Positions 1 to 5,665 of a DNA stretch of 6,176 nt are shown here, piece by piece. The DNA comes from a bacterium. GTDB lineage: Bacteria; T1Sed10-126. Under the pieces are notes generated by a model, which did no database searches, was not told where the DNA came from, and worked only from the letters and a program-made list of their open reading frames with translations. The DNA lies in the NCBI GenBank assembly GCA_003557545.1, contig PWOD01000071.1, positions 1 to 6,176 of the forward strand, read 5' to 3'. Position numbers and translations under genes: made by a program. Position 1 is the stretch's first letter. Each line of letters opens with the position of its first letter.

Positions 1-44
1 AAACTTAGCGCATGCTTCCGGGCCAGGCGACTAAAATGTTTCAT
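1..44 (-). CDS. 5' end of an unidentified gene cut by the left window edge
   Basis: Reading leftwards from an ATG at 44, fourteen complete codons are open to the window edge and give MKHFSRLARKHALS. A full Shine-Dalgarno AAGGAGG lies at 63-57 on the minus strand, 12 nt before the ATG, which is slightly long but similar to the spacing of the porin gene in this window. No other in-frame start lies between the two. The N terminus is basic, which would suit a signal peptide or a cytoplasmic leader before a membrane segment, but too little is present to name a family. The gene diverges from the anti-sigma operon and has a matching copy of the same promoter-like element (130-158), so it is probably co-regulated with it. 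The start call is fairly secure; the function is unknown. Confidence 0.6.
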   Translation of the reverse strand, partial: MKHFSRLARKHALS

Positions 45-129: not shown

Positions 130-158
130 TAAACGAAATTCGTATAAAAAACCCCCGG
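130..158 (-). promoter_or_regulatory. Candidate ECF-sigma promoter for the leftward gene
   Basis: On the minus strand CCGGGGGT (158-151) is followed after exactly 15 nt by CGTTTA (135-130). The same two blocks with the same spacing precede the rightward operon at 277-305. AATTT (165-161) upstream is also shared. A CGT-type -10 with a short spacer is typical of ECF sigma factors; a G-rich -35 is less usual. Transcription would begin near 123, giving a leader of about 79 nt. The repeat is seen directly; the promoter role is inferred. Confidence 0.5.
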
Positions 159-276
159 AGAAATTATTATTTTTACCTAAAAGACCTTACTCATCGAACT
201 TTTACTCAATCTTTCCTTGGCAGAATAGGTTTAAGTAAACAGTCTCGAAATTAATCTCAAAAAAAAATAAATTTAA

Positions 277-305
277 CCGGGGGTATTATCAACTGATTCC
301 GTTTA
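277..305 (+). promoter_or_regulatory. Candidate ECF-sigma promoter for the anti-sigma operon
   Basis: CCGGGGGT (277-284), a 15-nt spacer and CGTTTA (300-305) repeat, in inverted orientation, the element in front of the divergent gene. Over 36 aligned positions (270-305 against 165-130) 27 are identical, and the identity is concentrated in AATTT, CCGGGGGT, ATTyCGTTTA. Initiation about 7 nt after the -10 (near 312) would leave a leader of about 15 nt starting right at the AGGAGG of the anti-sigma gene. I saw no good housekeeping -35/-10 pair just upstream of this gene. The ECF sigma encoded at 1545-2096 is the natural candidate to read it. Confidence 0.55.
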
Positions 306-853: not shown

Positions 854-1273
854 ATGGATAAGCGAGTTTTGCTATTTTTTATTTGTTCAGTTTTTCTCAT
901 TACTACTGTCTTTTTTATCGGACTCGGGGCGGAAGAATACGACCCCTGGGGCCAACCAGAAACAGAGGTGGAGACCGGCGAACAAGAAGATCCTCTGGTT
1001 GCTGAGTATGCTGAAAAGATCAATAAATTGGAGGAGGCTACCGATGCCGTTCAGTCCGCCGAGGATACGGATGATAAACTTACTGCCACAAAACAGCTTG
1101 TCGTTCAACTGGCCGAACTACAGATAGATGAATTAACTGAACGGAAGGAAGATTTACAGCTTCCAATCTATTATGAGCCTGAAGAATCGACAGAGGACTA
1201 CCATGATCCTTATGAAGACGATGTAGAATTTGAGGAGTGGGATGATCAACAGTGGGAAGGGGAGGAGTGGTAA
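854..1273 (+). CDS. Small secreted, highly acidic protein of unknown function
   Basis: I do not recognise a family for this 139-residue protein. It begins with MDKR and a hydrophobic stretch (5-24) ending in GLGA, a good signal peptide with likely cleavage after A26; it may instead stay as an anchor. The mature part has an acidic N-terminal piece (27-47), a charged helical and possibly coiled-coil middle (about 48-101, many E, K, L, A), and a tail from 107 to 139 in which 17 of 33 residues are D or E and none is K or R, interspersed with Y and W (EFEEWDDQQWEGEEW). AGGAGG at 839-844 lies 9 nt before the ATG. It is the second gene of the anti-sigma operon and the last before the terminator. Binding of cations in the periplasm would fit the tail and the metal-sensor neighbour, but this is speculation. 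Confidence 0.75.
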   Translation: MDKRVLLFFICSVFLITTVFFIGLGAEEYDPWGQPETEVETGEQEDPLVAEYAEKINKLEEATDAVQSAEDTDDKLTATKQLVVQLAELQIDELTERKEDLQLPIYYEPEESTEDYHDPYEDDVEFEEWDDQQWEGEEW

Positions 1274-1297: not shown

Positions 1298-1405
1298 TCA
1301 ATTCAGCCAACCTTTTTGAGCCCCACCTCGAGAGTGGTTAAAGCTCCCGGTGCGGGGAGATCCTGTCCCCTCCCCGCACCATTTTTTTATATCCAGCTGA
1401 ATTGA
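1298..1405. repeat. 10-bp inverted repeat enclosing the terminator
   Basis: TCAATTCAGC (1298-1307) and GCTGAATTGA (1396-1405) are perfect complements and bracket the terminator hairpin plus a smaller dyad, CCAC-N7-GTGG, near 1323-1337. In RNA this could form a long stem carrying two inner hairpins. No flanking target duplication is seen, so a miniature transposon is not supported. Confidence 0.4.
1349..1388 (+). terminator. Strong intrinsic terminator after the anti-sigma operon
   Basis: GGTGCGGGGAG (1349-1359) pairs perfectly with CTCCCCGCACC (1370-1380) across a 10-nt loop, and the stem is followed by A and seven T (1382-1388). An 11-bp GC-rich stem with a U tract is a textbook Rho-independent terminator. 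It lies 75 nt after the acidic-protein stop and separates that operon from the sigma operon, so the sigma gene needs its own promoter. Confidence 0.93.
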
Positions 1406-1544: not shown

Positions 1545-2096
1545 GTGTCTGACTTATCTGACGAGCAACTTATGAATTTAGTCTCTGAAGGTAAAACAGA
1601 AGCCTTTGGGGAGTTGGTCCGTCGACACCAGAATCGTGCCTGGGGTATAGCCTACTGGTTTTTAAAGGACGCATTGCAGGCTGAGGATCTTGCTCAGGAA
1701 GCTTTCTTAAAAATTTTCGAAGCAGCACCTCGTTACGAACCCACAGCTAAATTTACCACCTATCTTAACCGGGTAGTTTCACGCCTTTGTTTTGACTGGA
1801 TAGAAAAAAACAAACCAAAATTAATAAAAAAAATACCGGTCGAGCAGAACAGAAGTGCAATCTCTTCCCCCGAACAAAATTTACTTGAAGATGAACTGGA
1901 AATAAAATTGAGAAAAGCAGTCCAGAAACTTCCAAAAAGACAGCGAATGGCAATAATCCTGCAACATCGAGAAGAACTGTCCTATCAAGAGATCAGCGAA
2001 ACAATGGGCACTTCGATCAAAGCAGTTGAAAGGTTACTGGCCAGAGCTCGTGATCAGTTGCAGGAAGAGTTGGCTGAATTTGAAAAATATCTTTAA
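1545..2096 (+). CDS. ECF-family RNA polymerase sigma factor
   Basis: The protein (183 residues from GTG 1545) redirects RNA polymerase to a small regulon. Sigma region 2 spans about 21-89, with the core-binding signature QAEDLAQEAFLKIF (45-58) and the -10 recognition helices to WIEKNKP; a short linker (about 90-117) follows, and region 4 spans about 123-178 with LPKRQRMAIIL and the helix-turn-helix LSYQEISETMGTSIKAVERL. There is no region 1 or 3, as usual for ECF factors. A longer frame opens at TTG 1509 but lacks a ribosome binding site and overlaps the -10 element; the SDLSDEQLMNLV start fits family N termini. The sensor-like gene follows with its ribosome binding site overlapping this stop codon, so the two are co-translated. 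The probable anti-sigma lies in the preceding operon. I cannot assign the ECF group from sequence alone. Confidence 0.93.
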   Translation: MSDLSDEQLMNLVSEGKTEAFGELVRRHQNRAWGIAYWFLKDALQAEDLAQEAFLKIFEAAPRYEPTAKFTTYLNRVVSRLCFDWIEKNKPKLIKKIPVEQNRSAISSPEQNLLEDELEIKLRKAVQKLPKRQRMAIILQHREELSYQEISETMGTSIKAVERLLARARDQLQEELAEFEKYL

Positions 2097-2101: not shown

Positions 2102-2110
2102 TTGACACTG

Positions 2111-2551
2111 ATGTTTAGAAGAGACCAAAGGATTCTATTATATATTTCACTCGCATTGAACGGGGTCTTCATTTTTATCTGTTCCTCATGGGTAATTTAT
2201 AGCTTGATCTCTCGATCAGCCCCCGAACAAACCACGTGGAGAGATTTTTACCGGGAAGAACTGGATGTTAGTGATAATCAATGGAAGTTTATCAAGGAAG
2301 AGATGCAATCTTATAGAACTTCCTGGAGGAACACCTGCGAGGAGATAATAAATTACCGGAAACAGATCATCAACCGATTAGAAGCCAAGGAAAACTTCGA
2401 CGATTTACTGGAGAAAATTGCCCGACCACAAAAAGAGATGCAAAATATTGTCCTGGCACACATTGACGCTCAACGTGGAATTCTTACGGAAGAACAGGAA
2501 AAACTATTTTTTGAGAGATTACGAAAAGTTACCGGTTGCCACTATCATTAA
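2111..2551 (+). CDS. Membrane-anchored periplasmic heavy-metal sensor-like protein (Spy/CpxP/CnrX type)
   Basis: The 146-residue product has a basic start (MFRRDQR), one membrane segment at about 9-31, and an all-helical periplasmic domain. Its layout matches the metal-resistance/Spy-CpxP superfamily: a first LTxxQ-like motif in divergent form, LDVSDNQW (51-58), long amphipathic helices rich in E, K and R (60-120), and a second canonical motif LTEEQ (125-129) before a final helix. It ends in GCHYH; C143, H144, H146, with C75 and H118, are possible metal ligands. In the Cupriavidus Cnr system a related anchored protein, CnrX, senses Ni/Co and controls release of an ECF sigma, so translation directly behind a sigma gene fits a signalling role. 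The fold call rests on motif pattern and length; the bound metal is not known. A simple chaperone role, as in Spy, is the alternative. Confidence 0.75.
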   Translation: MFRRDQRILLYISLALNGVFIFICSSWVIYSLISRSAPEQTTWRDFYREELDVSDNQWKFIKEEMQSYRTSWRNTCEEIINYRKQIINRLEAKENFDDLLEKIARPQKEMQNIVLAHIDAQRGILTEEQEKLFFERLRKVTGCHYH

Positions 2552-2565
2552 GAGCAGCCGAATTA

Positions 2566-3675
2566 TTAAAATTTAAGGGAAACTTCTCCGACCAGACCTT
2601 TAAAGTCAAAATCGTCCTCATTATCCTGACTATTGTCCTGGCGAACAAATTCCACTTTAACTAACATATTATCCTGTGGTTGATGATAAGTCCCAACCTG
2701 AATTCTTCTTAAATCAGTAAAGGATCTCTGCTCTCTATGATCAAAGTCAAGAACCGACCATCGGGCGGCAAAACCGGTATTTTCTGTATATGACCAGTCT
2801 CCCTGAACTGCCCAGTAATCACGGTCCCAAAAATAAACTGAGTGACGCTCAAGGGCTCCCATATGCGCGGATAAATTTAGATTACCCACGGCAAAACCAG
2901 CATCAACCTGTAATACATCAACTCGATTAAAGGTTAAGTCACGTAGAAAACTTAAATTACTAAAGGTTTGTTCAAGCAGATATGGCTCCGGTTCCGCACC
3001 GAAAAAGGAACTACCGCTGGCTGCATCCTCATCATGTTTAACCCTGTACCAGGAGGTTTTCAAAAAAGAGTTTGGGCCAAACTCAAACCCTGCCCCAAGA
3101 TTGATAGCCAGCTGGGTACCGTCTTCTACAGTGGCATCTCTGGTTCCATTGGTCAATCCTGCATTCCAGGCAAAATAACCCCGGTTTCCAGCTAAATGTA
3201 ATCCACCTTCTATATTACCGAAATCGGTCAGATGATTGCCAATCAAGGGATTTGATTCGACCCGCGCATTAACGCTTCTATGCTGATACTGTCGTCCAAA
3301 AGGAAGCTCCGATAAACCAATTTTCAAATTGGTGTTGGCAAAAATATTGTCCAACGAAATATAGGCTTCTCGCAAAGCAACCTCACTAACATCACGTAAT
3401 TGTGAAGGATCAGCCGGAGGCGGAGGGGACGGTAGATAGTTCTGAATATAATTATTATGGATTTCAGCAAAAACCTTGATATCATCGGCCAGCTCCAGGG
3501 TTGTGGACAGATTTATCATCGGCTCGCCAAACCCCATCTCTTCACTACCAGGCTCTGAACCAAGATTCTGCGCCGTCAGGGCAATATTACCATTTAACTC
3601 GTACCATCCGTGTAGCGGGTAGACTAAAAAAATTGAAAAGACTATAATTGCTAAAGCTATTAAGAATGATTTCAT
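2566..3675 (-). CDS. Outer-membrane porin-like beta-barrel protein
   Basis: The 369-residue protein has an N-terminal signal sequence (hydrophobic 4-20, MKSFLIALAIIVFSIFLVYP), although the cleavage site is not a clear AxA. It then shows alternating polar/aromatic strands such as LKTSWYRVKHDED and LVKVEFVRQDNS and ends in VSLKF; the terminal phenylalanine is the recognition signature of outer-membrane barrels. KIGLSELPFGRQ (118-129) and GLTNGTRDA (173-181) resemble the conserved PFG and TNG strands of phosphate-selective-type porins. A proline stretch (82-90, PSPPPPADP) probably forms a loop. AAGGAG at 3694-3689 is 13 nt from the ATG, rather long. It stands alone, converging on the sensor gene with a 14-nt gap. 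Substrate unknown; it might act in diffusion of small solutes. The beta-barrel class is well supported, the porin subfamily only tentatively. Confidence 0.75.
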   Translation of the reverse strand: MKSFLIALAIIVFSIFLVYPLHGWYELNGNIALTAQNLGSEPGSEEMGFGEPMINLSTTLELADDIKVFAEIHNNYIQNYLPSPPPPADPSQLRDVSEVALREAYISLDNIFANTNLKIGLSELPFGRQYQHRSVNARVESNPLIGNHLTDFGNIEGGLHLAGNRGYFAWNAGLTNGTRDATVEDGTQLAINLGAGFEFGPNSFLKTSWYRVKHDEDAASGSSFFGAEPEPYLLEQTFSNLSFLRDLTFNRVDVLQVDAGFAVGNLNLSAHMGALERHSVYFWDRDYWAVQGDWSYTENTGFAARWSVLDFDHREQRSFTDLRRIQVGTYHQPQDNMLVKVEFVRQDNSQDNEDDFDFKGLVGEVSLKF

Positions 3676-4051: not shown

Positions 4052-5665
4052 ATGCGATTTCTTTCACTAACCAACAACAAGATTGGTAAAATAATTGACT
4101 ATATTGAATCAGATCGAATCCCATTTATTTATTATATTTTCACAATCATCTCTGTTTTTTATCTCAGACATCTTCTTGAAATAATAGCTTATGATCAACC
4201 GGTTAATCTTCACCAGTTCTTCCATTATAATCTATTTTTTGCAGCTGTTTTTCTTCCAACAACAATCATTCTGACAGTTTTAACTGCTAAAAAACTTAAA
4301 AGAGTCGCTAAATCCGTTATGGCATTAAGCACCTTAATATTTTTGGCTCCCCTGATTGACATGATTATCTATGGGATAAATAACTACCAAACAAGGTATC
4401 TTTTACCGCAGGACCACAGTGGTACAACCCATCTATTACTTCGTTTCATCGGATTTTTCTTTTTCGAAAAAACTGGCGATCCCAAAATCGGAGTTAGTTA
4501 TGGTATCCAGATAGAAATAGCCATCATTTTAATCATGATCGTAGTTTACTGTTTACATAAAAACAGCTCAATTTTTAAATCTATCGGCGCAACTCTTCTT
4601 GTCTACAGTTCAATTTTTTTAACGGGAATGGCCCCATATTTTCTCCTGATATTAAGGAGAATCATAGGAGAAAATAGTTTAATATTTTCTGATCTTGAGA
4701 TTTCCAACTTTTTTTTAATTCTCGTCTTTGTTTACTTCTGGATAGTATTTTACCTGGCCGATAAAAAATCTTTCATAGCACTCATCAAAGATCTTCGAAT
4801 TTTTAGACTGCTTCACTATAGCCTGATGATTGTCCTGGGGATTGCTCTGGGATTACGCACCGGTTCATATACAATCAGTTTTAAATCAGTACATTATCTG
4901 GAATTGATTAATTTATTTTGTACTCTTTTCTTTGCTTGCCTGACAGTGATCTTTTTCAATAATCTAAGCGACTATTCAATCGACAAAATTTCCAACAAAA
5001 AACGTCCACTTGTTTCAGGCGAAATCTCGCCGAATATATATAAAAATTTAACATTAATTTTTTTGACTATGACCGTCCTGTTTACTATAAAAACAGGTGC
5101 CGGGTTTATCCCTCACTTATTTTTAATCCTTTTTATCGGCAATTATTTCCTTTATTCCTCTCCACCTGTTCGCTTTAAAAAAGTCCCAGTTCTTTCTAAA
5201 CTCACAATTTCAATTAATTCTCTACTCCTTTTGACACTGGGTTATAGCTATGTGGTAAAACCTCGGGATATAATTTCAGCACCATATGCAGACCTGGCCT
5301 TACCGTTACCACTCATATGGATATTTCTTACAATTTTCACTCTAGGTGCTAATTTTATCGATCTAAAAGATTATGCGGGAGACAGAGTCGAAGGAATAAT
5401 GACATTACCGGTTTTACTCGGCTTGAAAAATGCTAAACTAATAAGCGGTTTGTTTTTCGCAGGAGCTATCGCCTCGGCCTATTTTATCATTGATATGGCT
5501 GTGGAAATGACTACCGGTGAAAGTTATGTATTAATCGGAATAATTGCTTTTTTTGCACTACTTGAGTTCTTTTTGATCAACCGGAAGCGGTACAGTGAAA
5601 AACCGGTTTTTATCGTTTATTTAACTTTTTTAACCGGTTTGATTATAACAATCTTTTATCTTTAA
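4052..5665 (+). CDS. UbiA-family prenyltransferase with an extra N-terminal membrane domain
   Basis: The C-terminal half (about 250-537) is a UbiA-type integral-membrane prenyltransferase, which joins a polyprenyl diphosphate to an aromatic or other acceptor using Mg2+. Motif I is NNLSDYSID (303-311), followed by KRPLVSGEIS (317-326); motif II is DLKDYAGDRVEG (437-448) with TLPVLLG after it; YSSPPVRFKK (368-377) is also typical. The second position of motif I is N rather than the usual D; the other acidic ligands D307, D311, D437, D440 and D444 are kept. Residues 1-250 add roughly six hydrophobic segments (about 24-46, 58-78, 88-108, 152-168, 176-201, 218-236) that I cannot assign; ordinary members have about 290-330 residues. 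AGGGGG (4038-4043) lies 8 nt before the ATG. The gene stands alone, so neither substrate nor pathway (quinone, heme, lipid) can be told. Confidence 0.85.
   Translation: MRFLSLTNNKIGKIIDYIESDRIPFIYYIFTIISVFYLRHLLEIIAYDQPVNLHQFFHYNLFFAAVFLPTTIILTVLTAKKLKRVAKSVMALSTLIFLAPLIDMIIYGINNYQTRYLLPQDHSGTTHLLLRFIGFFFFEKTGDPKIGVSYGIQIEIAIILIMIVVYCLHKNSSIFKSIGATLLVYSSIFLTGMAPYFLLILRRIIGENSLIFSDLEISNFFLILVFVYFWIVFYLADKKSFIALIKDLRIFRLLHYSLMIVLGIALGLRTGSYTISFKSVHYLELINLFCTLFFACLTVIFFNNLSDYSIDKISNKKRPLVSGEISPNIYKNLTLIFLTMTVLFTIKTGAGFIPHLFLILFIGNYFLYSSPPVRFKKVPVLSKLTISINSLLLLTLGYSYVVKPRDIISAPYADLALPLPLIWIFLTIFTLGANFIDLKDYAGDRVEGIMTLPVLLGLKNAKLISGLFFAGAIASAYFIIDMAVEMTTGESYVLIGIIAFFALLEFFLINRKRYSEKPVFIVYLTFLTGLIITIFYL

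Follow-up and report, generated by a model that had tools for sequence, protein, structure and literature searches.

Canonical ECF promoters have AAC in the -35 and CGT in the -10 element as their hallmark (PMC8103513), and the promoters of EcfG, which governs the general stress response, follow the pattern GGAAC-15/17-CGTT (PMC5869019). In complexes of sigma-E and SigW, residues R176 and S172 of the recognition helix contact positions -35 and -34, and R171 contacts the base opposite C-31 (PMC6713349). Clusters of an ECF sigma factor, a zf-HC2 anti-sigma factor, and a Spy-like protein are already known in kind; similar ones are present at G058 and G027. For a G-run -35 in ECF promoters, our literature search found no relevant description.

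The DNA analyzed here (the window) is an entire contig of 6,176 bases, one of 239 in a 2.15-Mb genome (G000) of the GTDB phylum T1Sed10-126, or Candidatus Busufiota, for which two genomes, 2.15-2.2 Mb in size and recovered from sediment of hypersaline soda lakes, are listed (PMC11382960). The nearest relative is bacterium T1Sed10_126 (G001). At the left end of the window, an ORF cut by the contig end (minus strand, 43-1) is separated by two divergent predicted promoters from genes for a zf-HC2 anti-sigma factor and an exported acidic protein, followed by a hairpin, an ECF sigma gene, and a gene for a Spy-like protein:

1-43, minus strand: start of the leftward gene, first 14 codons MKHFSRLARKHALS, truncated at the contig boundary; the N-terminus is basic, like that of a signal peptide
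130-158, minus strand: predicted leftward ECF promoter, -35 CCGGGGGT at 158-151 and -10 CGTTTA at 135-130, facing the cut ORF that starts at 43, transcript start expected at ~121-124; based on the exact copy and the matching divergent promoter on G001:C117
277-305, plus strand: predicted rightward ECF promoter, -35 CCGGGGGT at 277-284 and -10 CGTTTA at 300-305, transcript start expected at ~311-314; based on the exact copy and the same element at the orthologous anti-sigma gene on G001:C117
327-827, plus strand: zf-HC2 membrane anti-sigma factor (Pfam PF13490, 1.2e-10; one hydrophobic segment)
854-1273, plus strand: exported acidic protein, encoded second in the anti-sigma operon (G001 counterpart 43% identical over 70 aa, same gene order)
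1341-1388, plus strand: conserved hairpin and T-run, GCTCCCGGTGCGGGG..CCCCGCACCATTTTTT (fold z -6.0)
1545-2096, plus strand: ECF sigma factor (Pfam r2 9.8e-18, r4_2 2.1e-15), recognition helix IKAVERLLARAR
2102-2551, plus strand: Spy/CpxP-like membrane-anchored periplasmic protein (LTXXQ 0.006, a weak match below the cut-off; 42% to the gene at the corresponding position in G001)

With E. coli sigma-E (RpoE/RseA), this locus shares the pairing of an ECF sigma with a membrane anti-sigma factor, and its predicted targets resemble the sigma-E regulon in comprising a SurA-like chaperone, a lipoprotein, a probable small RNA, and the anti-sigma operon. In contrast, E. coli sigma-E uses GGAAC as its -35, RseA is not a zf-HC2 protein, and residue 172 is Ser rather than Arg. 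The CnrYXH system of Cupriavidus metallidurans and other ECF/anti-sigma/Spy-like (Metal_resist, LTXXQ) operons likewise keep an ECF sigma, an anti-sigma factor, and a Spy/Metal_resist-type periplasmic protein together, but CnrH is only distantly related to the window sigma (PDB 4cxf, E 2e-6). Nor is the G-run motif in excess near other ECF genes: about 100 ECF loci from other phyla (888 kb) yielded 13 matches and 13 control matches, with one match to the exact core, so that the element looks lineage-specific. EcfG promoters have the same -10 and the same spacing; they differ in carrying GGAAC where GGGGG stands here, and the anti-sigma factor in the window is a zf-HC2 protein.

The 183-aa sigma factor contains only Sigma70_r2 (residues 24-90) and Sigma70_r4_2 (121-172), joined by a short linker, and is thus of the ECF (group 4) type; its best NCBIfam model, PRK05602, scores 154 bits, below the cut-off of 208. 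A putative anti-sigma factor is encoded nearby (327-827), and a paralogous operon carries the same pair. The protein at 327-827 shows the H-x3-C-x2-C signature of ZAS factors (HLASCSQC) and a hydrophobic segment, AAVVIIGFGAGIAAGVII, as a transmembrane helix, and is 31% identical to the anti-sigma factor of G001:C117. The Spy-like protein is a probable sensor or chaperone.

An initial sequence-only reading had described a two-block element, CCGGGGGT-N15-CGTTTA, at 158-130 on the minus and 277-305 on the plus strand. Both copies are present at exactly these coordinates and strands, about 120 bp apart, as CCGGGGGTTTTTTATACGAATTTCGTTTA (leftward) and CCGGGGGTATTATCAACTGATTCCGTTTA (rightward), and a recount of the 36-nt alignment that includes the upstream AATTT returns the 27 identities given there. 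The proposal that CGT is a typical ECF -10 agrees with the published hallmark (PMC8103513) and with the presence of CGTTT at all core sites. The -35 is as unusual as had been suspected, with CGGGGG in place of the hallmark AAC, and we file the element as a variant; the distance from CGGGGG to CGTT is 15-16 nt, within the 15-17 nt that separate the -35 from CGTT in ECF promoters.

The element is kept in the one relative that has the sigma factor. On G001:C117, a divergent pair, CCGGGGGGGAAGCCGGTGTTATCCGTTTA (minus strand) and CCGGGGGTTTTTAGACCGGTTTCCGTTTA (plus strand), lies between a 346-aa SurA-like gene (SurA_N_3 1.4e-15, PPIase 3.9e-25) and the orthologous operon, which encodes a zf-HC2 anti-sigma factor and an acidic protein and has the same hairpin as the window. 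The rightward copy had been placed just ahead of the ribosome binding site of the anti-sigma gene. Indeed, the -10 is followed within ~10 nt by AGGAGG and ~8 nt further on by ATG, at a near-equal distance in both genomes (on G001:C117, the -10 lies ~27 nt upstream of the anti-sigma ATG). Conservation is here a single comparison, since two genomes of the phylum were compared. By its position, the leftward gene of the window possibly encodes a SurA-like chaperone as well; a search for such an ortholog elsewhere in G000 returned only a PPIase-domain match on contig C24, and its identity therefore stays positional.

The placement of the element in the genomes is not random. In the 2.15-Mb genome, CCGGGGGT-N15-CGTTTA matches exactly at the two window copies and nowhere else, with ~0.016 chance matches expected for the 14 bases (4.3 Mb over both strands / 4^14). 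When two mismatches are allowed, this first-written pattern shows no clear excess over its reversed control (6+13 versus 6+8), so the signal resides in the exact core. We therefore turned to the core, listing every CGGGGG-Nx-CGTTT with x from 4 to 33 in both genomes, and found a peak at x=15 (7 matches) and x=16 (11), against a mean of 2.07 at other spacings; these two spacings hold 18 of the 76 matches where ~4 are expected (P 4e-7 for the pair). Taking as intergenic whatever lies outside stop-free frames of 120 aa, 12 of these 18 matches are intergenic, compared with 6 of the 58 matched controls that have a different spacing (P 6e-6). Of the six remaining "in-frame" matches, at least three are in fact intergenic, namely those before the G001 anti-sigma gene, the G001 sigma hairpin, and the G000 efflux gene.

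Columns outside the selection are also biased, with an upstream A/T run (P 1e-5), a T after the G-run (P 2e-5), and a purine after CGTTT (P 0.006). The refined pattern WWNYCGGGGGWWW-N13-CGTTTR, with one mismatch, has nine matches in the two genomes, all at operon fronts, and no match to its reversed control; its 15-spacer version has eight, at least five of them real sites, again with no control match. The true core is [C/T]CGGGGG-N15/16-CGTTT[A/G], in which the T of GGGGGT is merely a preference. The concern that the element might be frequent at random places thus does not hold: matches concentrate in intergenic DNA and at spacings 15-16. We judged the matches on G001:C35, C69, C94, C95, and C98 and on G000:C100 to be chance, as they have the wrong spacing, lie within genes, or lack A/T flanks.

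Beyond the divergent pairs, sites of this type were found at the following places:

C33: before a lipoprotein gene
G001:C14: before a probable 70-nt small RNA with a terminator (fold z -3.9)
G001, T-first: before the hairpin that precedes the window-type sigma gene
Both genomes: at an HlyD-type membrane-fusion/ABC efflux operon behind a TauE-like permease
Two per genome: at the Spy-sigma-anti-sigma paralog operon
C110: before a gene for a hypothetical histidine-rich protein

The names lipoprotein, TauE-like, and ABC partner come from reading the sequences, not from a family search. Motif, spacing, location, conservation, and the genes behind the sites can be read directly from the two genomes. 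Spy-like protein genes are also among these genes, which, judged by their predicted products, constitute an envelope-stress set (cell-envelope repair and efflux).

Analyzing the recognition helix, we noted that the window sigma, its G001 ortholog, and both paralogs share K168, E171, R172, A175, and R176 (a K-x-x-E-R-x-x-A-R helix). Among the Busufiota sigmas of this type, four of four have Arg at the position of E. coli sigma-E Ser172, compared with none of the 93 other ECF sequences aligning there; another ECF sigma in the same genome retains Ser (GTVMSRLHRAR). Only R172 is distinctive, because E171 is also common in relatives (45 sequences). The two changes would fit together, with an Arg gained opposite the G-run and R171 gone along with the C. 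With the conservation, non-random placement, spacing, and CGTT -10 of the element, this helix change supports the proposal that it is an ECF promoter; all the sequence-based checks suggested in the initial reading thus turned out favorable.

We consider it very probable that the ECF sigma encoded at 1545-2096 uses the two elements as divergent promoters, probably sharing them in part with the paralog on C191, and conclude that they are predicted ECF promoters with a variant -35 through which a sigma-E-like envelope-stress regulon would regulate itself. We infer the binding sigma, its contacts, the inducing signal, and the start of transcription there as follows. Envelope stress would free the sigma factor from the zf-HC2 anti-sigma, perhaps aided by the Spy-like protein; domain 4 would then read CGGGGG as the -35 and domain 2 CGTTTA as the -10. 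RNA polymerase would start rightward into the anti-sigma operon, providing feedback, and in the leftward direction would enter an envelope gene, which its position suggests to be that of a SurA-like chaperone.

That the two copies resemble each other by chance, or arose when AT-rich intergenic sequence was recently duplicated in place, might be suspected from their closeness, ~120 bp apart, and from the two-mismatch counts, but the spacing, intergenic, and flank tests all contradict it, and the same elements recur at the corresponding genes in G001, whose sigma is 67% identical to that of the window. Such conserved, correctly spaced copies refute this reading in practice. It is also quite improbable that a DNA-binding regulator uses the element as its operator, or that a housekeeping sigma-70 promoter includes it as an upstream part. 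Operators can likewise consist of two conserved blocks, and a G-run is not known as a -35; however, the element is non-palindromic, points toward a gene at nearly all sites, keeps a fixed promoter-length spacing, and marks two separate sigma/anti-sigma operons, while sigma-70-like matches in positions 1-1600 of the window are at shuffle level (4 versus 3.4), just one of them near the element.

A weightier alternative, which we nevertheless regard as unlikely, accepts the elements as real ECF promoters but has them read mainly by the paralog (G000:C191, G001:C116), or equally by both factors, so that the window sigma would not be their specific reader. The paralog has the same recognition helix, its own operon bears near-identical sites, and in G001 a T-first site precedes the hairpin and the window-type sigma gene. 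Against this, CCGGGGG-N16-CGTTTA occurs at anti-sigma operons of the window type and the genes divergent from them, and TCGGGGG(TTT)-N15/16-CGTTTR at the paralog operons. This split by first base and context suggests two overlapping specificities, and the single T-type site before the G001 window-type sigma gene hints at a cascade; the assignment of sites to sigmas is uncertain because the two paralogs share their recognition helix. We tentatively propose a fuller scheme, which we hold as somewhat less probable than not: the Busufiota sigma pair would read a G5 -35, not AAC, via the Arg at the sigma-E Ser172 position, and the paralogs would split the envelope-stress regulon, small RNAs included, by one base (C/T) before the G-run. 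This sequence-defined regulon is perhaps the first to be put forward for a phylum of which only two metagenome-assembled genomes are known. It also provides a naturally occurring example of an apparent joint change in a -35 element and a contact residue of the sigma recognition helix; with it, the code of ECF -35 recognition, commonly presented as AAC-centered, can be tested directly.

The hairpin occurs at only three places in the two genomes, all beside this sigma system: in the window (1341-1388), in L048 (3068-3118), and in L147 (2720-2768). It carries GAGCTCCCGGTGCGGGG/CCCCGCACCATTTTTT, with AAGCTCCC in the window, and the stem shows a compensatory change from an A-T to a T-A pair. It could be either an operon terminator or the 3' end of a small RNA; one G001 copy directly follows an ECF-type promoter, so that a small RNA, and not just a terminator, may be what it forms. 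In the window, the site stands at the anti-sigma operon; the sigma gene, which has no copy directly in front, comes after the terminator-like hairpin further downstream. Upstream of the sigma gene, an extended -10-like sequence, TGATATAAT (1512-1521), suggests a housekeeping promoter for the sigma gene itself.

The small RNA candidate of G001:C14 (L149, 1494-1425, minus strand) lies directly downstream of CCGGGGG-N16-CGTTTA and comprises two stable hairpins and a T-run. We sought a homolog in G000 and found none, the sole similarity being that of its promoter to the left promoter of the window. Rfam gave no match in the window, L048, or L040, nor in three target loci at a permissive threshold.

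Elsewhere in the window, a 369-aa signal-peptide protein of porin-like appearance, without a significant Pfam or NCBIfam family, is encoded beside the Spy-like gene (2566-3675, minus strand), and a 537-aa membrane protein (4052-5665) has no Pfam match in its N-terminal half and a UbiA prenyltransferase domain in its C-terminal half. In G001, the contigs C8 (L129) and C116 (L041) carry a near-identical promoter and Spy-like gene at two contig ends, reflecting either a tandem duplication or strain variants in one bin.
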